A stretch of 64,000 nt of DNA from Desulfonatronospira thiodismutans ASO3-1 (GTDB taxonomy: Bacteria > Desulfobacterota > Desulfovibrionia > Desulfovibrionales > Desulfonatronovibrionaceae): assembly GCF_000174435.1 (NCBI RefSeq), contig NZ_ACJN02000001.1, positions 302,001 to 366,000 on the forward strand, given 5' to 3'. The notes under the pieces are model-generated. The model saw nothing but the letters and a program-made list of their open reading frames with translations. It did no database searches and had not been told where the DNA came from. Both the position numbers and the translations under genes were made by a program. This document shows positions 1 through 52,685 of the stretch, piece by piece (within the stretch, counting starts at the first letter, position 1; each line of letters starts with the position of its first letter).

Positions 1-127
1 TTGGACTGATCTGCGTCAGCCACAGGGCAGCATAAGAATGCAGCCCAAGTAAGTGCGGGATTTCCCGGTTTTATCCTGCCACTCACTGCGCAAGACTCTC
101 CTGCCACGAAGAATGCTGTCTTACGCG

Positions 128-330
128 CTCACTCAGGCAGGTCTTCTGACTTCCGGATCATCCTCCACCGCGCCTTCCCACCCAGCACTTACTTTTTTCT
201 TGAAGGAAAAAATTTAGAAAAGTAAGTGCCGGGCAGTGGCCTCATGCGGCATTCGTCCCCGGTTACAGCGGCGGGCCCGTCCCTGATTTGCACAGGGTTC
301 CCTATTAAGCTCATTTTGAGCACCCAAGTG
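128..330 (-). ncRNA. Cobalamin (B12) riboswitch, reading leftwards off the window
   Basis: Read on the minus strand, this stretch has the cobalamin riboswitch landmarks in order: a GTGCAAATCAGGGACGG-like segment, then CCCGCCGCTGTAACC, then CCACTG, GGGAAGG, and finally the B12-box-like GAAGTCAGAAGACCTGCC near 133-152. Its target must lie on the minus strand left of position 1; positions 1-127 would be the leader. It does not point at the ABC transporter at 979, although a B12 receptor or importer gene to the left would make biological sense. Odd point: the variable peripheral stem between CCACTG and GGGAAGG is occupied by a genome-wide repeat hairpin (181-233). Confidence 0.88.
181..233. repeat. 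GCACTTACTTTT palindrome inside the riboswitch
   Basis: Arms CCCAGCACTTACTTTT and AAAAGTAAGTGCCGGG close a short AT-rich loop. Seven related hairpins occur at 4255-4320, 10685-10744, 20176-20215, 43782-43850, 45396-45462, 46150-46198 and 52266-52319. Arms are either CACTTA/TAAGTG or CACTCA/TGAGTG, always matched within a copy. Confidence 0.85.
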
Positions 331-978
331 ATTGAGAGCACCTTATCCACAGGTAAGCCGGACAGTCAAGAAAGAAAATCCAGAACTTATGGCAATTCTG
401 TTTTTATGTTTTGTGTTTCGCTTTCGAGAAGTCTCACCACATCCGGTTTCCACCGGACCCAACAGTGTTGGTTGTATAGCGCAGGACTTTTTTGCAGACA
501 TAGCCTCCAGTAATCACTTGTCCCAGACCACAGAATATGGATCCGCACTGGTTATCTTGTCCGCTGTTTGCGCATTTCCGGAAAAGGATTCCATCTCCAC
601 TATGTATTTCTGAAGCTTATCCATGGGAATGCGGGCCAGCTCCCTGGACATTAATTGTTACAAATCGCTCCCTGGACACCATATACTCTGCATACTTCAG
701 CCCTTCAACGTGTTACTGCACAACCGACATTGTTTTCATTTTGACATCTTTTTTTTATTCGTGTAACGATCTGCACTTCTGCCTGGCACGCTGAACCCGT
801 AAATTTTTGTTCATGGTCTACCGGGGCAGATTCCAGGGATACATAATCCTTGCCATTTGTACTCAGGCGTTAATGCTCAGAGGCCGATAATCTCTGCCTG
901 GCTTAGCTGAAAACCACTGTATTGCCTTGGAGATACTTCGAAAGAGGACATAAAACCTTTATTTAAGGAGATACAAAT
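331..978. other. Non-coding stretch before the ABC importer
   Basis: I see no convincing gene here. The short open frames lack a ribosome site and protein-like composition. A small CCGGTTTCCACCGG palindrome lies near 440-455. The right end carries the ribosome site AAGGAGATA just before the ATG at 979. The promoter of the minus-strand riboswitch transcript probably lies in the left part of this stretch. Confidence 0.5.
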
Positions 979-4224: not shown

Positions 4225-4482
4225 GCCAGGGTCCGGGGGTTCGGCAAACTGGGTCCCGCACTTACTTTTCTATGTCCAACCAATTTTCAAAGCAAAGTTT
4301 GCCAGAAAGTAAGTGCGGGATTTGAGCGACGTAGGAAGAGTTAATCAAAACCGTAAAACACCGAACTTGATTCAAAGCATGTTACAGGAATATCCTGGCT
4401 TTCAATCCCGTGTATAGGTTTTGATTTACTCTTCCTTGAAGCGAGTTTTTACGTCCTGTTTGCCGAATCTCCGGACCACTGG
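4225..4482. repeat. Composite palindrome: two hairpins enclosed by one outer pair of arms
   Basis: The outer arms are CCAGGGTCCGG...TTCGGCAAAC (from 4225) and GTTTGCCGAA...CCGGACCACTGG (to 4482). Inside lie two separate palindromes in tandem: the GCACTTACTTTT hairpin (4255-4320), and a pair of arms GGAAGAGTTAATCAAAACC (4333-4351) and GGTTTTGATTTACTCTTCC (4417-4435). The right outer arm (4441-4482) recurs inverted, 42 bases with one mismatch, at 8398-8439. Nothing here looks coding. It separates the importer from the rubrerythrin gene. Confidence 0.75.
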
Positions 4483-6045: not shown

Positions 6046-6289
6046 TACTTATTCTATATTGCTATCAAAATGATTTTAATCAGCGTAGATCAGTTTACCC
6101 CGTGAAATCTCTTATTATTTCACTGGGGCGAGATCAGCGGCTAAAATATTTCTTCTTCATGCAAATGGTGACATCAAAGGCAAAGAATCTTGGCCGCTGA
6201 TTGCGCAGATCTCCGCAGATAAGAAAAGCATTGCCAAAGGGTTTGTAGTGATAAACATTAAGATCATCTTGATTGCAAATTGGAATTAG
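6046..6289. mobile_element. MITE-like element, copy 1 (244 bp)
   Basis: The ends are imperfect inverted repeats: left TATTGCTATCAAAATGATTT, right AAGATCATCTTGATTGCAA, both flanked by TATTC/GAATTA-like bases. An inner pair of arms (ATCAGCGGCTAAAATCTTTC and its partner CTTGGCCGCTGAT) makes a second palindrome. A second copy is at 48905-49113. Copy 1 carries about 34 extra bases near 6095-6131 that form a CCCCGTGAAAT...ATTTCACTGGGG hairpin. No protein is encoded. The right end contains the nifS stop codon. Confidence 0.8.
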
Positions 6290-10627: not shown

Positions 10628-10790
10628 TTAACACTACAGCGAAACTTATAAAATTTTTCAACCTGTCTAAACTGGGGACAGGCACCCCCGCACTTATTTT
10701 TATTACAAACGATCTTGGTTTTATTGGAAAAAATAAGTGCGGGGAGAGCCAGTCCCCGGAGGTCAATCATAAGTTTCGCTGTAGTGTTAA
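10628..10790. repeat. Nested palindrome, TTAACACTACAGCG type (163 bp)
   Basis: Three shells are visible. The outer arms are TTAACACTACAGCGAAACTT and its complement at 10771-10790. The middle arms are GGGGACAGGCAC and GAGCCAGTCCCC. The inner arms are CCCCGCACTTATTTT and AAAATAAGTGCGGGG. The same outer arms occur in the inverse layout at 23291-23441, where the inner shell is different. It lies between the amidohydrolase and rhodanese genes, where no gene is seen. Confidence 0.88.
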
Positions 10791-36023: not shown

Positions 36024-39000
36024 ATGATCAGTTCAAGCCAGACTTTTTTAAAGGCAGATATGTTGAAAAGCACCGGGATTACAGAGAAAAACGGCCCCCG
36101 TTCTATTCTTATTGTGGATGATGAACCGGAACAAAGAATTATCATCAAAAAAATCCTTACTTCTGCCGGTTACCGGGTTCTTGAGGCTGAATCAGGTGTT
36201 GAGTGCACAGAGCTTATTCGCAGACAGCAGCCTGACCTGGTTTTGCTTGATGTCAAACTTGGCGATGAAAGCGGCCTGGATATCTGCAGGCAAATAAAGA
36301 CCGATTCTGATATTGCAGACACCCATATCATGTTTTTGTCCGGGGTGAAGACAAGCCCTCAGGAACAGGCCCGGGGACTCAGGGCAGGTGCGGATGGCTA
36401 CATAGTCAAGCCGGTGAACAAAGAAGAGTTTCTGGCCAGGATTGAGGCCTTGATGCGTGTTGTACACACAGAGGAAAGGTTGAAGGAAAGTCAGCATAGA
36501 CTTGTGTCGGCACAGCGCATAGCAAAAGTCGGGGATTTTATCTGGGATGTGCAAACCGGGAATATAACCTGGTCGGACTCTCTATATGAGTTGTTGCAGT
36601 ATGACAGGTCCCAGCGAATAGATTATGAGACAGTCAAAAATCATGTTCATCACCCTGATGATGTCCAGGATATTGCCGACTGGCTGAAAAAATCCCTGGC
36701 ATCCGGGGAAAAAGACCTGCCACCCATGGAATACAGGGTTTTTCGAAAGGACGGCCAGATCTTATACGTAAGGACCACAGGTGTTATTTACTACCAAAAT
36801 AACAAAGCTTCCAGGGTGTTTGCCACTGTACAGGACGTTACCCAGCAAATAATGGCCCGAGTGCGCTTGTCTGAAATCAATGAGTGCCTGCTCAGCTTAG
36901 GACCTGATTTTAATGAAAACATTGAAAAACTTACCGCTCTTTGCGGCAGAATCCTTGGTGCGACCTGCGCACTTTATAATCGTCTTGAAGGCGATCTGCT
37001 TTGTTCAAGAGGACAATGGCAGACTCCTCCCGACTACCACCCTGAAGACACCCCCCAGGGACATATCTGTTTTGATGTAATTCAAAAGGGGAGTAACAGC
37101 CATGTGGTGGTTACCAGCCTGCAGGAAACGTCATATGCTGATACTGACCCTAATGTCACAAAGTACGGATTAAAAACATATATCGGCCAGGCTGTGAGAC
37201 AAGGCGACAGTTATGTGGGCTCCATCTGCGCGGTCTACCAGACCGACATCATACCTTCAGAGGATGACCTGCACGTTCTAAGACTCATCGCTTCAGCCAT
37301 TAGTGCTGAAGAGAACCGTAAGCGTGCCGAGGAGGCCTTACGGGAGAGCGAGAAAAAATATAGACAGTTGTTTGAAAATTCGCCGATTTCCTTGTGGGAA
37401 CAGGATTTTTCAGAAGTCAAAAAGCGCCTTGATGAGCTTAAAGCTCAGGGGATAAAAGATCTTGAGGCTTATTTGAAGCAACGGCCTGAACTGGTTTGGG
37501 AAATGGCCGGACTGGTAAAAGTCATAGATGTCAATCAGGGAACATTGAATTTGTATAAAGCAAACTTCAAGGACGAATTATTAGCTGGAATATCCAGGAT
37601 TTTTGGTAAGGAATCCTATGCTGATTTTTTGCAGGGCCTGTTATTAATAGCATCCGGAGAAACCAGCTTTTCTTTTGAAAGAGAGCATGTGACCCTGGCT
37701 GGTCAGAATTTGAAAACACAGCTCTACTGGTCTGTCATTCCTGGATATGAGGTGGATTATTCCCGTGTACTGGTCTGTATTGTCGATATCACCGAGCTTG
37801 TTAACATTCAGGAGGAATTGATTCAGGCCAAAGAGCAAGCCGAGGCCGCAAACCAGGCCAAATCCGAATTTCTGGCCAACATGTCTCACGAGCTGCGTAC
37901 GCCATTCAACGGCATAATGGGCATGATGCAGGTGTTGCAGAACACGGACCTGGATGATGAACAGCAGGAATTCGTCAATCTGTCCATTCAATCATCTGAA
38001 AGGTTCGCCCGCCTGCTTTCGGATATCCTGGAACTGTCCAATATAGAAGCGGGCAAAATGATCATCTGCCCTGCACATTTCAGCCTCCAGGAACTGCTTG
38101 AGTCCTTATCCGGTCTGTTTTCGGCAGAAGGCCATCAAAAGGGACTCGCCCTGGAATTTTTAATGGACTCCAATGTTCCGGCAGAAGTCATAGGAGACGC
38201 GACCCGGGTCAAGCAGGTTATGTTCACCTTAGTGGGCAATGCCCTGAAATTTACAGAACAAGGGTCCGTGCAGGTCCAGCTGACCCCTCTATCTGCGACC
38301 AAAGGAGGAGATGTCAGGGTGCAGTTTTCCGTCTTCGATACCGGAATCGGTATCCCTGAGGACAGGTTGAGTGATCTGTTCAACCCCTTTGTACAGGTGG
38401 ATGGATCGTATACACGCAAATACCAGGGCGCAGGCCTTGGCCTGTCCTTAGTCAAACGCCTGGTGGATTTGATGAACGGAAACATTTCCGTTGAAAGTGA
38501 AGTGGACCGGGGGACCACAGTGCACGTGGTCCTGCCCTTTGCCTTGCCGCCTGTAGATCACTTAGAATCTGCTATTGCAGCCGCTAATCAGCAAGATTCG
38601 AAAAAGCACTTAGATATCCTGCTGGCAGAAGACGATAACTTGAATCAGTTATTTATGAAAAAGATGCTGGAAAAGCAGGGCCATAATGTCGTCCTGGCCA
38701 ATAACGGGCAGGAAGCCGTAGACCTTTTCCAGGAACAGAACTTTGACTGCATACTCATGGACATTCAAATGCCTGGTATGACCGGGGTGGAGGCGACGCA
38801 GCGGATAAGAAGCATGGAGCATGGGGCATGGGGCCCCAGTGAAACCCCAGTCTGCGACAGGGAGCCCTTTGGGCTGTTTCACGGGGCAGGCATGGAGCAT
38901 GGCGCAGAAGTCAGAGGTCAGGAGACAGAGGACGGAGACCAGACGTCAGAGATGGGAAAACGTATCCCGGATTTCCTCAATACCTCAATTCCTCAATCCC

Positions 39001-39158
39001 CCAATCCCCGAATTCCAATAATCGCTGTAACCGCCCATACCCAGCCTGGTGACCGGGAGAGATTTCTGGAGGCCGGAATGGATGATTACATAGGCAAACC
39101 GGTGAATCACGAGGATTTTCAAAGGGTGTTCAGTAAGTTTTTTGGGCAGGAGCATTAA
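36024..39158 (+). CDS. Hybrid histidine kinase (REC-PAS-GAF-PAS-HisKA-HATPase-REC) with a repeat-derived insertion
   Basis: 1044 residues, cytoplasmic. The first receiver (about 30-145, LVLLDVKLGDESG) is followed by a PAS domain with PAC exit (160-285), GAF (290-430), an atypical PAS-like domain (445-595), HisKA with ANMSHELRTPFNG (histidine near 622), HATPase (about 670-840, NALKFTE, DTGIGIP, GAGLGLSL) and a second receiver (about 865-1040, CILMDIQMPGM). Inside that receiver, between the RIRS helix and PIIAVTAHTQ, about 68 residues are inserted. They are encoded by a repeat (38811-39014), are low in complexity and keep the frame. The loop position may allow the domain to fold. A GGGAGG site supports the start. 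Confidence 0.92.
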   Translation: MISSSQTFLKADMLKSTGITEKNGPRSILIVDDEPEQRIIIKKILTSAGYRVLEAESGVECTELIRRQQPDLVLLDVKLGDESGLDICRQIKTDSDIADTHIMFLSGVKTSPQEQARGLRAGADGYIVKPVNKEEFLARIEALMRVVHTEERLKESQHRLVSAQRIAKVGDFIWDVQTGNITWSDSLYELLQYDRSQRIDYETVKNHVHHPDDVQDIADWLKKSLASGEKDLPPMEYRVFRKDGQILYVRTTGVIYYQNNKASRVFATVQDVTQQIMARVRLSEINECLLSLGPDFNENIEKLTALCGRILGATCALYNRLEGDLLCSRGQWQTPPDYHPEDTPQGHICFDVIQKGSNSHVVVTSLQETSYADTDPNVTKYGLKTYIGQAVRQGDSYVGSICAVYQTDIIPSEDDLHVLRLIASAISAEENRKRAEEALRESEKKYRQLFENSPISLWEQDFSEVKKRLDELKAQGIKDLEAYLKQRPELVWEMAGLVKVIDVNQGTLNLYKANFKDELLAGISRIFGKESYADFLQGLLLIASGETSFSFEREHVTLAGQNLKTQLYWSVIPGYEVDYSRVLVCIVDITELVNIQEELIQAKEQAEAANQAKSEFLANMSHELRTPFNGIMGMMQVLQNTDLDDEQQEFVNLSIQSSERFARLLSDILELSNIEAGKMIICPAHFSLQELLESLSGLFSAEGHQKGLALEFLMDSNVPAEVIGDATRVKQVMFTLVGNALKFTEQGSVQVQLTPLSATKGGDVRVQFSVFDTGIGIPEDRLSDLFNPFVQVDGSYTRKYQGAGLGLSLVKRLVDLMNGNISVESEVDRGTTVHVVLPFALPPVDHLESAIAAANQQDSKKHLDILLAEDDNLNQLFMKKMLEKQGHNVVLANNGQEAVDLFQEQNFDCILMDIQMPGMTGVEATQRIRSMEHGAWGPSETPVCDREPFGLFHGAGMEHGAEVRGQETEDGDQTSEMGKRIPDFLNTSIPQSPNPRIPIIAVTAHTQPGDRERFLEAGMDDYIGKPVNHEDFQRVFSKFFGQEH
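38811..39014 (+). repeat. In-frame repeat insertion in a receiver domain (kinase at 36024)
   Basis: About 204 bases. It starts with GCATGGAGCATGGGGCATGG, then a hairpin with arms CCCCAGTGAAAC and GTTTCACGGGG, then CAGAAGTCAGAGGTCAG, and ends in short CCTCAATCC-type units. All 68 codons are open. The same two end modules are present in the insertion at 42541-42714. Confidence 0.85.
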
Positions 39159-43699: not shown

Positions 43700-43850
43700 A
43701 GACGCTTAGCACAAATCTCAAACCAACAAATTGGAACCTTTATCTGACACCCTGCTTGTTACGCCTATGGAGTAATTAAACACCCAGCACTCACTTTAAT
43801 TATTTCGGTCTCATCATCATATGCAATCAAATGAAAAGTGAGTGCTGGGT
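43700..43850. repeat. Repeat D (divergent) plus GCACTCACTTT hairpin
   Basis: GACGCTTAGCACAAAT...CAAACCAAC...CTTTATCTGACA (43698-43755) is a diverged copy of the repeat at 25834 and 52633-52685. The hairpin at 43782-43850 has arms ACCCAGCACTCACTTT and AAAGTGAGTGCTGGGT. Confidence 0.75.
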
Positions 43851-44079
43851 CCTGCAAAGCAGGGTTTAACTGGGCCTGCCCGGTTAAACAAATCTGAAGG
43901 ATTACCCGGTTAAACCGGGTCCCTCTGGGTGTTTAACACGGGATTTCCTGCAAAGCAGGGTTTAACTGGGCCTGCCCGGTTAAACAAATCCGAAGGTTTA
44001 CCCGGTTAAACCGGGTCCCTCTGGGTGTTTAACACGGGATTTCCTGCAAAGCAGGGTTTAACTGGGCCTGCCCCAATGA
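43851..44079. repeat. Tandem 96-bp repeat rich in GTTTAAC palindromes
   Basis: CCTGCAAAGCAGGGTTTAAC starts at 43851, 43947 and 44043 (two full 96-bp units and a partial third). Each unit holds CCCGGTTAAAC...GTTTAAC-type inverted words. An inverted partial copy is at about 52556-52632. The unit then joins CCAATGAATAGGCTTACGTG, also found inverted at about 52525-52550. Confidence 0.88.
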
Positions 44080-44101: not shown

Positions 44102-44333
44102 TCTCCCCTCCTTAGCCAAGGAGGGGCCGGGGGTGGTTGTAACCAATCCCTTCCTTATCTCTCCCCGCCTTAGCCAAGGAGGGGCCGGGGGTGGTTGTAA
44201 CCGATCCCTTCCTTATCTCTCCCCTCCTTAGCCAAGGAGGGGCCGGGGGTGGTTGTGACCAATCCCTTCCTTATCTCTCCCCGCCTTAGCCAAGGAGGGG
44301 CCGGGGGTGGTTGTAACCAATCCCTTCATTGTT
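44102..44333. repeat. Four tandem 58-bp units with CCTT-AGCC-AAGG palindrome
   Basis: The word CTTAGCCAAGG recurs at 44111, 44169, 44227 and 44285, exactly 58 bases apart. Each unit reads CTCCCC, palindrome, GGCCGGGGGTGGTTGTAACC, AATCCCTTCC. Single units occur at 45835-45895 and inverted at 52465-52520, and the palindrome is shared with the 415-bp arrays. Confidence 0.9.
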
Positions 44334-44899: not shown

Positions 44900-45164
44900 A
44901 TATTATTCCTGTTAACAAATATCCGCATGGATCTCTTGTAAGTCAAGTACCGGCAGTCAGAAAAATAATCAACTCTCACTTCACCCCACCAAGCATCTTA
45001 ATCATCGGCAAAGTAGCGTTCATAAAGGGCTCAAGTCTGATTTTCAGCCCGCTCCAATCTCTTCATGGCATACAAACCCTCAACCCCGCCAACCGAAGTA
45101 AACTTCCTTGTATCCTTGGAGCCAAGCAGGTGCTTGACCTGGTCAAATATTTCCCCCGCCTGCC
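44900..45164. other. Gap without a recognisable gene
   Basis: The sequence upstream of the DUF4160 gene holds short open frames in several directions but none with a ribosome site or recognisable protein. Palindromic repeats begin at about 45165. Confidence 0.4.
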
Positions 45165-45530
45165 TTGTGAATCCGGGCTCCCTCTGGGTGATTCACTGGG
45201 TAAAATTCCTGTCACGCCTCTGGCGTCATTGAATCTCTTCTTATTCAACCGGGGTCTTCCCATTTTACTGGGGCCTCCTGCACAAAGTCCTTGCTTGCCC
45301 TGTGAAATGCCGTAACACGGCCCTGCTACGCAGGATTTCACTGGGCCGCCGATAACTCCGGAATCTGTTTACCCGGTTAAACCCGGCCCCGCGTGACCCA
45401 GCACTCACTTTTCCATTTGTTTGCTTATGATAGAGCCGAAAATATTAAAGTGAGTGCTGGGTGTTTAACCGGGTTCACCCGGTTAAACACGGCAGAGCCG
45501 TAGACCTTCGGTCTGTTTAACCGGGTGAAA
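45165..45530. repeat. Cluster of word-swap palindromes
   Basis: At least five short palindromes lie side by side: GTGAATCCGGG...GATTCACTGGG (45170-45205), CATTGAAT...ATTCAACCGGGG (45228-45256), CCCTGTGAAAT...ATTTCACTGGG (45298-45348), the ACCCAGCACTCACTTT hairpin (45396-45462) and GTTTAACCGGG/CCCGGTTAAAC arms (45371-45530). The frame (CGGG, CCCTCTGGG) stays similar while the paired word changes. Confidence 0.8.
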
Positions 45531-45736
45531 TACCTGCATCTGTACCTGAAACGCTCTACCCTGGAAATCTTGTAACCCTTCTTTCCGGCCTTTTCCACAA
45601 CCTTTTGATCAATTCCTCTACTCACTGACCCTTGTCCCCTTTTGTCCTTGATGGGCAGGCCCTGCAGGGCGGTTCTTGATATTATATGGTAGACTGTAGG
45701 CTGGTTGTCTCGGACAAATCTGGCAATTCCAGGCAT
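45524..45736 (-). pseudogene. Remnant of a RAYT-like (Y1, REP-associated) transposase
   Basis: The frame from ATG 45736 begins MPGIARFVRDNQPTVYHIIS then RTALQGLPIKDK, the N-terminal pattern of REP-associated tyrosine transposases (PRIAR...VYHVMSRT-like). After residue 32 it jumps to a segment ending SRVERFRYRCRYFT, which resembles the C-terminal VRYFTDG region of the same family. The middle, with the HxH metal motif and the catalytic tyrosine, is missing. It runs into palindromic repeats at the 3-prime side. It cannot be active. Confidence 0.65.
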
Positions 45737-45834
45737 GGTGGACCTTCTGGAAGGCTTGCGGTTGCTGGGGTTGAGAGGAATTTAGCGAAATTGAGTAGAA
45801 AAGGCAACTCAAAGAACCTGTCCCCTGCGTCTCT

Positions 45835-46500
45835 CACCGCCTTAGCCAAGGAGGGGCCGGGGGTGGTTGTAACCGATCCCTTCATTATCTCTACCCTCCT
45901 TCAGTGGCTTACTCCTGAAACCCTGTCATAAAAAACAAGAACCACGCGCTGCGCGTGGCAGGCCTTAGACAGGATTAACAGGATTGACCCCAGTTGAATG
46001 GAAGAGATTCAACGGGGCAAGCAGGATAAGCAATCTGCGGCCCCGGTGAAATCAGCTGCGCTGTCCTTCGGCCCCGGTTAAGCATAAGAAGGCTTCACGG
46101 GGTAAAAATTTCACAGGGCAAGCCGGAAGCCGCAGATTGCATTAACCATCCAGCACTCACTTTCTTCTTCATGAGTGCCGGAAAAAAGTGAGTGCTGGAG
46201 TGATAACCTTTTGGCCTGGCTTCCGCCTGTCCCGTTTAATTGCTCGCAGAGCAAGCCCGAAGGGCATTAAACTGGGAGCCAGGACAAAGATGATTTCCTC
46301 TTCATCAATCTCTTAATCCTGTTAATCCTGTCAAAAAAGTTCTTTTCTTTATTGGGTTGCGGGCAAAGCCAGCATTAGGAAGAAAGTATGAGTGTAAGTG
46401 GGTATCCATGTATGGTGTAAAGATTTTTTGACTCCCATACTCCCATACTCCCATACTTCTTAAGGCCAAGGGTGGTTGTATGTGATTCCTTCCTTTCCAT
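45835..46500. repeat. Left copy of a long inverted composite repeat (with composite repeat C, copy 2)
   Basis: Blocks in order: a 58-bp unit (45835-45895), GGCTTACTCCTGAAACCCTG, an ACCACGCG-CTG-CGCGTGG hairpin, ACAGGATTAACAGGAT, two ATTCAACGGGG / GTGAAAT palindrome pieces, the hairpin at 46150-46198, TTAATCCTGTTAATCCTGTC, GGGTTGCGGGCAAAGCC and tandem CTCCCATA units (about 46433-46460). The same blocks appear in reverse complement and in the same order at 51995-52520. Confidence 0.85.
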
Positions 46501-47779: not shown

Positions 47780-48904
47780 ATATAAAAACTACCTGTACCA
47801 GGCTGTTTTTGCAAGATTTATTTGAATCAGTCCGAGATTTTTTTATAAAGCGGTAAATAATTGACCAGATTACTATGAAATTGGCAGGAAGATCCTAGAT
47901 AGCAGGGCCTTCATGTGTATTTTACTTGCTATGCAGCATGTTTCCTGCTCAAACCGTCCAGGTAGGTGACGAATCTTTTGAAGAGCTCCGGTTCGCGCTT
48001 GCAGCGCTGCAAGTTGTTAAATGCAAGGATGATTAGGAGGGTTAGGTCTGGCGGTAATCCTGGATAGCTTGAAACGGGTAAAATCAAGGCCAGATTGCCC
48101 ATAACATGCCAAGCTTGAAATGGGAAAAAAGTCGTCTGAATTGCCCAAATTATACCAGGCTTAAATGAGATGCCACTCTTCAACCGTGCGCGGCAGAGCC
48201 GCCCGCCTGTCACGCCTATGGCGTGATTGAATAGCTCATGAGCTAGCCCACAGGGCATTCAACTGGGGTGCCAAAAAATCTTCTTGGGCTCGGTAAGCCT
48301 TCAGGCGTACACCCGACAAATGCGGGTCTTGCCCGCAACCCAGATAAGATAAGAGTTTTTAGCCCACAGATCACACAGATTGACACAGATAAAAGAGATT
48401 GAAGAAGCATGTTTTTTCCTTGCGGGAATAAGAACCCGCAAGGAAAAGGCATCAGCCGCTTGCGCGGCGGGGGAGCACCTAAGCTTAGTGTCCAAAAAAG
48501 AAACAGTCCCAGCGCCAGGTGCTGAACCCCCGTCATGGCTCAAATTTTTCTTGTTTTTGTGAAAGGGTTTCAGGAGTAAGCCACTGAATACGCTTTCCTG
48601 TCCTGCGGAATTTTATGCGGGCAGGCAAATGCTACGCACTCCGCACACAAAGTTTTGAAGAATAAAGAGCCCCAACAAAGCGTTGTCCGCCTGGCAGACA
48701 GGCAAATTGACATATCTCCAGCCTGAAGGGTTACGCGGGGGCAGTCCCCTAGTCTTGTGCCGTTGGTCACCACAGTACCCTCCTGAATGGTTAAAATAAC
48801 CCGGCAGGTATCTTGAGAACCATGATCGGTCTTTTGAGCCAGGGCATGTCCGACTTTGATCACGCCAATGCTGTTTTTGGTAAGGTGTAAATACCGAAGA
48901 GAAA
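47780..48904. other. Repeat-rich gap with possible gene debris
   Basis: A minus-strand frame ending at 47929 (TLLIILAFNNLQRCKREPEL, RFVTYLDGLSRKHAA) may be the tail of a lost gene, but nothing upstream completes it. A word-swap palindrome (GTGATTGAAT...ATTCAACTGGGG) lies at 48222-48266, a CCTTGCGGG/CCCGCAAGG hairpin at about 48418-48444, the word TTTCAGGAGTAAGCCACT near 48568, and a single CTCCTGAATGGTT arm at 48780-48795. No intact gene is seen. Confidence 0.5.
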
Positions 48905-49113
48905 TACTTATTCAATATTGCTATCAAAATGATTTTAATCAGCGTAAATCAGCTAGATCAGCGGCTAAAATCTTTCTTCTTCATACAACTGGTGACAACA
49001 AAGGCAAAGAATCTTGGCCGCTGATTGCGCAGATCTCCGCAGATAAGAAGAGCATTGCCAACTGGTTGGTAACGATAAACATAAAGATCATCTTGATTGC
49101 AAATTGGAATTAG
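48905..49113. mobile_element. MITE-like element, copy 2 (209 bp)
   Basis: The same inverted ends and inner palindrome as copy 1 at 6046-6289, same orientation, and no extra hairpin (AGCTAGATCAGCGG is uninterrupted here). It ends exactly where the orphan 3-prime end of a gene begins (49113). Confidence 0.8.
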
Positions 49114-51994: not shown

Positions 51995-52685
51995 AATAGT
52001 AAGGCTTCAGAAAAAGGAAGGGATCGGTTACAACCACCCCCGGCCTTAAGAAGTATGGGAGTAAGGGCGTATGGGAGGATGGGAGTCAAAACATCTTAAC
52101 ACCCACACATGGATACCCCCATACACCCATACTTCTTCCTAAGGCTGGCTATGCCCGCAACCCAATAAATAAAAGAGTTTTTTGACAGGATTAACAGGAT
52201 TAAGAGATTGATTAAGAGAAAAACATTTTTGTCCTGGCCGGAAGCCAGGCCAAAAGGTAATCACTCCAGCACTCACTTTTTTCCGGCACTCATGAATGTC
52301 GGAAGAAAGTGAGTGCTGGATGGTAAATTCAGTCAGCGGCATCAGGCCGGTGGCTGATTATCCTATCCATCCTGTTAATCCTGTCTAAGGCCTGCCACGC
52401 GCAGCGCGTGGTTCTTGTTTTTTATGACAGGGTTTCAGGAGTAAGTCAAAAGAAGGGTAGAGATAAGGAAGGGATCGGTTACAACCACCCCCGGCCCCTC
52501 CTTGGCTAAGGAGGGGAGTTACTACGTGCACGTAAGCCTATTCATTGGGGCAGGCCCAGTTAAACCTTGCTTTGCAGGAAATCCTTCAGATTTGTTTAAC
52601 CCGGCAGGCCCAGTTAAACCCTGCTTTGCAGGATGTCAGATAAAGTTACCAACATGTTTGTTTGAAATTTGTGCTAAGCGCCTGG
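51995..52685. repeat. Right copy of the long inverted composite repeat
   Basis: In reverse complement this carries, in order, repeat D (52633-52685), two GTTTAAC-type units, CACGTAAGCCTATTCATTGG, a 58-bp unit with the CCTTGGCTAAGG palindrome, CCACGCG-CAG-CGCGTGG, AGGATTAACAGGAT, the hairpin 52266-52319, TTAATCCTGTC, CGGGCATAGCC and CCCATAC tandem units. Left counterparts are at 43700-44150 and 45835-46500, where extra DNA splits the series. The right edge comes within 12 bases of the modB start. Confidence 0.88.

Follow-up and report, generated by a model that had tools for sequence, protein, structure and literature searches.

Tagged palindromes with interchangeable paired words in Desulfonatronospira thiodismutans: probable copies of a REP-like mobile element

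REPs are palindromes of 20-50 nt that carry a 5' tetranucleotide and are cleaved in single-stranded form by an HUH enzyme (PMC8266576). REPINs are excised as hairpins bearing a 5' tail, and compensatory changes within the hairpin occur often (PMC3116915). Here, we analysed short palindromes in a window of 64,000 nucleotides (bases 302001-366000 of contig 1) from the 4.1-Mb genome of Desulfonatronospira thiodismutans ASO3-1. A sequence-only reading had described them as sharing an outer frame while carrying different paired words, and such palindromes are present at all the places it listed. Scanning the window for CCC, a word, its complement and GGG returned 34 raw matches, while the GGG..CCC control orientation gave 2; matches also occur across 20 sampled 20-kb stretches. 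The palindromes probably represent a very small mobile DNA element, non-autonomous and REP-like in the way it works.

Frame, tag and fold of the palindromes

The constant frame reads CCC, 0-1 base, GT..AAY ... RTT..AC, 0-1 base, GGG. A shared frame had been rightly recognized, except that CCCTCTGGG, counted as part of it, is instead an internal hairpin found in one subfamily. In most copies the frame encloses two hairpins (3-7 bp, mostly with 3-nt loops and almost without spacers), and these two triloop hairpins make the strand fold into a three-way junction of about 48 nt. Other copies hold one 7-8 nt loop, which is purine-rich (pyrimidine-rich on the other strand). Using RNA parameters, four example copies fold with -17 to -27 kcal/mol (z -2.6 to -5.9). 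The body is T-shaped (three-way junction) or a hairpin, with a 7-bp word stem behind a G/C clamp. The mobile units carry a 4-nt tag of the form YYYR (CTTG, CCTG, CTCG, TTCA or TTTA), and in the full form tag and palindrome together measure 52 nt. At least one side carries a tag in 148 of 184 elements, compared with 8% of background CCC triplets (one side), and tags and words combine rather freely.

The copies in the window are collected in Table 1. The span 43851-44079, listed earlier as short palindromes, holds two composites (43879-43970 and 43975-44066), each an element within an element, then arranged in tandem. At 48222-48266 the palindrome is present and its left clamp is missing; the kinase copy is also present, its span being corrected from 38842-38888 to 38834-38886. 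Beyond what had been noticed, the changes reach the two inner hairpins, and each unit is a mobile insertion bearing a 4-nt tag. The cluster that had drawn attention, between the two gene remnants of Table 1, is a pile-up of insertions in a dead Y1-transposase gene of the 306-aa type.

Table 1 Elements and transposase gene remnants in the window
Position	Strand	Feature	Related sites and remarks	Evidence
6094..6128	+	Single-hairpin element, tag TTTA + CCCCGTGAAAT-CTCTTATT-ATTTCACTGGGG	Similar element-free sequence at window 48905-49011	
38834..38890	-	Three-way-junction element, GTGAAAC subfamily, tag CCTG on - strand	In receiver domain of hybrid kinase ORF (36024-39158), reading frame open	
43875..43970	+	Tag CCTG + three-way-junction element with nested element 43901-43942; tandem copy one	Unnested form in L123/L124 and at window 52555-52604	
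43971..44066	+	Tandem copy two of composite; nested element 43997-44038, tag TTTA		
45055..45153	-	Remnant of the Y1_Tnp gene also found at 45524..45631, residues 271-303		tblastn 91% identity
45163..45204	-	GTGAATC/GATTCAC element, internal CCC-TCT-GGG hairpin, right-side TAAA (TTTA on -)		
45228..45256	+	ATTGAAT/ATTCAAC hairpin; TCACGCC/GGCGT hairpin in place of left clamp		Read directly
45294..45345	+	52-nt unit, tag CTTG + GTGAAAT[GCCGT aac ACGGC][CCTGC tac GCAGG]ATTTCAC three-way junction	Empty site in L099 and others	Fold -23.1 kcal/mol, z -5.0
45372..45473	.	GGTTAAAC/GTTTAACC frame interrupted by CCCAGCACTCACTTT..AAAGTGAGTGCTGGG element		
45474..45525	+	52-nt unit, tag TTCA + GTTAAAC[ACGGC aga GCCGT][AGACC ttc GGTCT]GTTTAAC three-way junction	Empty site ACCGGG|TGAAAT in L073/L099	Fold -26.7 kcal/mol, z -5.9
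45524..45631	-	Y1_Tnp (RAYT-like) gene remnant, residues 219-258		tblastn 75% identity
45988..46021	-	34-nt unit, single hairpin CCCCAGTTGAAT-ggaagag-ATTCAACGGGG + CAAG (tag CTTG on -)		
46041..46122	-	Three-way-junction element GTGAAAT/ATTTCAC + CAAG, nested single-hairpin element 46072-46106	Empty site in L096; un-nested version in L013	
46226..46277	+	52-nt unit, tag CCTG + TCCC-GTTTAAT[TGCTC gca GAGCA]a[GCCC gaa GGGC]ATTAAACTGGGA	Empty sites at window 52180-52293, L115, L018, L021	
48226..48267	+	GTTGAAT-type element [AGCT catg AGCT]a[GCCC aca GGGC], left clamp lost		Read directly
52555..52604	-	Three-way-junction element, AAATC/CCTGC subfamily, un-nested relative of 43879-44066		36.7 bits

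Several other features were also seen. The kinase copy lies among GCATGG-type heptamer repeats in a receiver-domain loop, and kinase or response-regulator-type genes stand at several element loci (L076, L079, L082, L109, L126, L131). A related family, CCCAGCACTCACTTT..AAAGTGAGTGCTGGG, occurs at window 43782-43850, 45396-45462 and 46148-46200, once splitting the GGTTAAAC frame, and tandem 58-bp repeats (CCCCTCCTTAGCCAAGGAGGGGCCGGGGGTGGTTG) lie close to element clusters (window 44102-44333, 45832-45889, 52450-52520). A second palindrome family, CCCGCACTTAyTTTT..AAAArTAAGTGCGGG (55-66 nt), is present at window 4255-4319 and 10687-10743, L012:15602-15661 and L028:14386-14451; at L012, ACTGT on both sides within GGGGACTGTCCCC suggests a 5-bp target duplication. 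The class CCCGCACTTA..TAAGTGCGGG was kept apart because its target differs, as seen at L012:15602, where it has ACTGT to either side.

Paired substitution between copies and within sites

A covariance model built from five copies, which also covered the part of the genome beyond the sampled stretches, gave 129 strand matches in a genome search, which count as 81 genome places (78 at E<0.01), and a strict parser gave 61 readings of perfect or near-perfect junctions, some copies counted once per strand, in at least 10 subfamilies. Across 103 distinct aligned rows, 98.7% of cells are paired, 467 cells are changed on both arms (141.7 +- 9.8 in shuffles) and covariation reaches 0.586 (0.144 in shuffles, 0.04-0.10 in slid structures), figures that lean towards structure since copies can enter the rows on both strands and the alignment is fitted to the model. 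Fifteen of the 20 pairs are changed on both sides, and all three stems show paired substitutions. In a frame-only test over 464 kb of sequence, mostly taken regardless of the element, with left and right frames chosen blind to the variable letters, perfect complementarity was found in 19 of 23 word pairs (shuffles: mean 4.4, maximum 12). The claim that word changes are mirrored on the other arm holds well, as about 80 genome copies and those of relatives keep pairing through double changes; when all genome copies were examined for unpaired words, pairing held.

Within sites, the picture differs. Five sets of copies sharing both flanks (27 copies) show 7 one-arm and no two-arm stem changes, together with 10 changes at unpaired positions; per site, loops change about 7 times faster than stems, a slowness of the stems that is not fully explained and is to be read knowing that some sets may be independent insertions. 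The mirror rule is thus not visibly enforced in place in this small sample, and paired changes separate lineages at different sites. The proposal of a family diversifying under self-complementarity is supported across copies, without visible enforcement among same-site copies. Since only one-arm changes occur in place and paired changes lie between sites, we infer that selection acts at mobilisation.

Arm-to-arm copying (quasipalindrome template switching) could mirror changes without any selection, and both the almost exclusive use of Watson-Crick pairs and the slower stems even among same-site copies are what it would lead one to expect. However, all 7 stem changes in the same-site copies are still one-armed, and chimeric words (GTTGAAT/ATTAAAC and GTTTAAT/ATTCAAC, from one L103 copy read on two strands) persist, which makes this explanation unlikely.

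Slightly less likely, the palindromes might be structured RNA elements of a terminator-like or regulatory kind, in which pairing would persist because folding of the transcript is required. The strong covariation, the stable RNA folds and the mostly intergenic position of the copies (1 of 24 inside an ORF of at least 200 codons, though such ORFs cover 77% of bases) would suit such a role. Against it, only 10 G.T and 2 A.C pairs are seen among 861 cells oriented by the tag strand, and this scarcity of G.T pairs suits DNA better than RNA. The insertion units are also precise, nested and tandem copies pile up in a dead gene, and Rfam has no match at the elements, its matches in the window being just a cobalamin riboswitch and a tRNA. 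The cobalamin riboswitch lies at window 119-342 (-) with 112 bits.

Insertion sites, distribution and the candidate enzyme

Comparison of empty and filled sites indicates that the gained unit consists of the 4-nt tag and the palindrome, without target duplication. Clean empty sites were found for 52 of 176 elements, and at window 45298, 45478 and 46231 the gained unit is exactly 52 nt. At the insertion junctions, G precedes the unit in 22 and a pyrimidine follows it in 25 of about 27 distinct sites, a hand reduction of 40 listed rows, again with no duplication; the test admitted just five tags, so that the tag was an input, while the flanking G/pyrimidine step was not. Single-hairpin forms and nested composites of 82-92 nt follow the same G/pyrimidine rule, and the composites are inserted at several sites. 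An 82-nt unit, which itself holds a nested hairpin element, interrupts a Y1-transposase-like gene at L141 (CTCGAA|TCATATTC). The direction of change is given not by the empty/filled pairs alone but by nesting and by empty targets present in multiple copies. The body can be exchanged or nested into with mobility kept.

These junctions also bear on two further explanations. Ordinary MITEs of a DDE-transposase insertion sequence would share the inverted-repeat ends, the many copies and the intergenic position, but a target-site duplication is expected of them, whereas the junctions here are clean, the tag stands on one side of the unit and no transposase family recurs near the copies except the Y1 gene remnants; we consider this origin very improbable. 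Common descent alone, in which a few palindromes spread by duplication of flanking DNA and the words are old subfamily markers with no ongoing rule, accounts for several sets with common flanks, which evidently spread as larger arrays, but it is the least credible explanation, given many subfamilies at unrelated sites with exact empty sites and inner hairpins that differ completely between genomes while the frame stays constant.

The element is present at E<=0.01 in 19 of 40 relatives, which belong to several families of the order; a model search at the same threshold gave no match in three species from a single genus of the same family. In another sample of the phylum, 12 of about 296 genomes carry it, mostly in multiple copies, and in the copies looked at the frame is kept with quite different inner hairpins. 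Scanning public genomes for the inner-hairpin pattern showed the same elements in Desulfonatronospira sp. CSSed11_143, Desulfonatronovibrio and Desulfohalobiaceae. A contig (L165) binned as Candidatus Nealsonbacteria, from soda-lake sediment, has the same double-hairpin pattern, which may reflect misbinning or transfer. More tentatively, the elements could represent a widespread, undescribed class of transposase-unlinked mobile DNA in Thermodesulfobacteriota, a possibility to which we give somewhat less than even weight, in which mobility would need the T fold and the constant frame and tag, all three stem sequences being free; recognition would be by shape and frame, with an exchangeable body.

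The genome has 31 Y1_Tnp matches in four groups, one of which is flanked by its own, different palindromes (L138-L140). The transposases there measure about 295 aa, and their flanks, of TTGCAC..CGCG..GTGCAA and TTTACAC..CGC.. types, also have variant paired words. A search by proximity for a dedicated enzyme gave a model match at 3 of 46 fetched Y1_Tnp loci, several of them overlapping, and one match lies within the gene. Five to six element-bearing relatives (G001, G003, G004, G005, G007, G013; some incomplete) have no Y1_Tnp match. Across the phylum, Y1_Tnp is present in 12 of 13 carriers and 199 of 284 others; it is too common there to separate carriers from non-carriers. The Y1 transposase was rejected as a linked partner, as neither proximity nor co-occurrence showed an association. 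Among recurrent gene families around the copies, just paralogous kinases and the remnants of Y1-transposase genes are conspicuous. GC skew gave no sign of the replication-strand bias that a REP system would lead one to expect (tag on + in 12 and on - in 14, in negative-skew stretches), a weak test with an irregular skew.

The absence of target duplication, the one-sided tag, the need to fold and the precedent of REP (PMC8266576, PMC3116915, PMC6006769) suggest that an HUH-type enzyme mobilises the element. As a plausible mechanism, an HUH/Y1-type nuclease supplied in trans would act on the folded single strand, reading tag, clamp and frame and requiring a closed stem. Only lineages in which the second arm has changed to match would then be copied on, so that pairing would be kept by selection at mobilisation; since copying would require the closed stem, the words would be free within the pairing rule. 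With dozens of paired word variants in one frame and exact junctions, the family amounts to a natural covariation experiment on a mobile DNA structure, separating the features that a mobilising enzyme has to recognise (tag, clamp, frame, closed stem) from those it may ignore (word, loops, inner hairpins). The spread of transposase-less tagged palindromes thereby becomes directly testable with oligonucleotides.

Comparison with described systems

Our literature search returned papers on REP, REPIN and tagged REPs and none on a T-shaped element. With the REP/TnpAREP system (RAYT, REPtron), the element shares a small palindrome within 20-50 nt, an unpaired 5' tetranucleotide, a stem irregularity near the foot, many intergenic copies and a proposed single-strand mobilisation. 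In REP, however, the tag at the foot is GTAG/GTGG and the REPtron has a Y1 gene flanked by REP, whereas the tag here is YYYR, GT[AG]G was not found, and no Y1 gene is linked; because that tag and a linked transposase were both looked for and not found, we do not file the element as a REP. Compared with REP, it also has a three-way-junction body with triloop hairpins and is inserted at a G/pyrimidine step, and it has very few G.T pairs, whereas GT pairing is frequent in REP stems (PMC3733652).

The REPIN (PMC3116915) is likewise a mobile hairpin with a 5' tail and common paired changes in the hairpin, but it is an inverted doublet of a conserved 16-mer, while each unit here is one closed T without a doublet. 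Non-autonomous elements of the IS200/IS605 type insert beside a fixed sequence without duplication and have a cognate transposase; in the comparison with them, the G/pyrimidine rule was seen, and neither a two-ended element nor a cognate transposase was identified. SDR5-type very small cyanobacterial repeats (Elhai et al. 2008, cited in PMC4390886) are reportedly tiny, precise insertion modules as well. CGTC-tagged REPs, including Rickettsia RPE-4 and RPE-6 (PMC3733652), are also palindromes with a tag, lack a dedicated transposase and sometimes lie within protein genes; they differ in their CGTC tag, 8-9 bp stem, 4-5 nt loop and CCA tail (PMC3733652), a combination that the element here does not have. 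The nearest known systems are the REPs and CGTC-REPs, as tagged palindromes, from which its tag, T-shaped body, free stems and G/pyrimidine insertion set the element apart.
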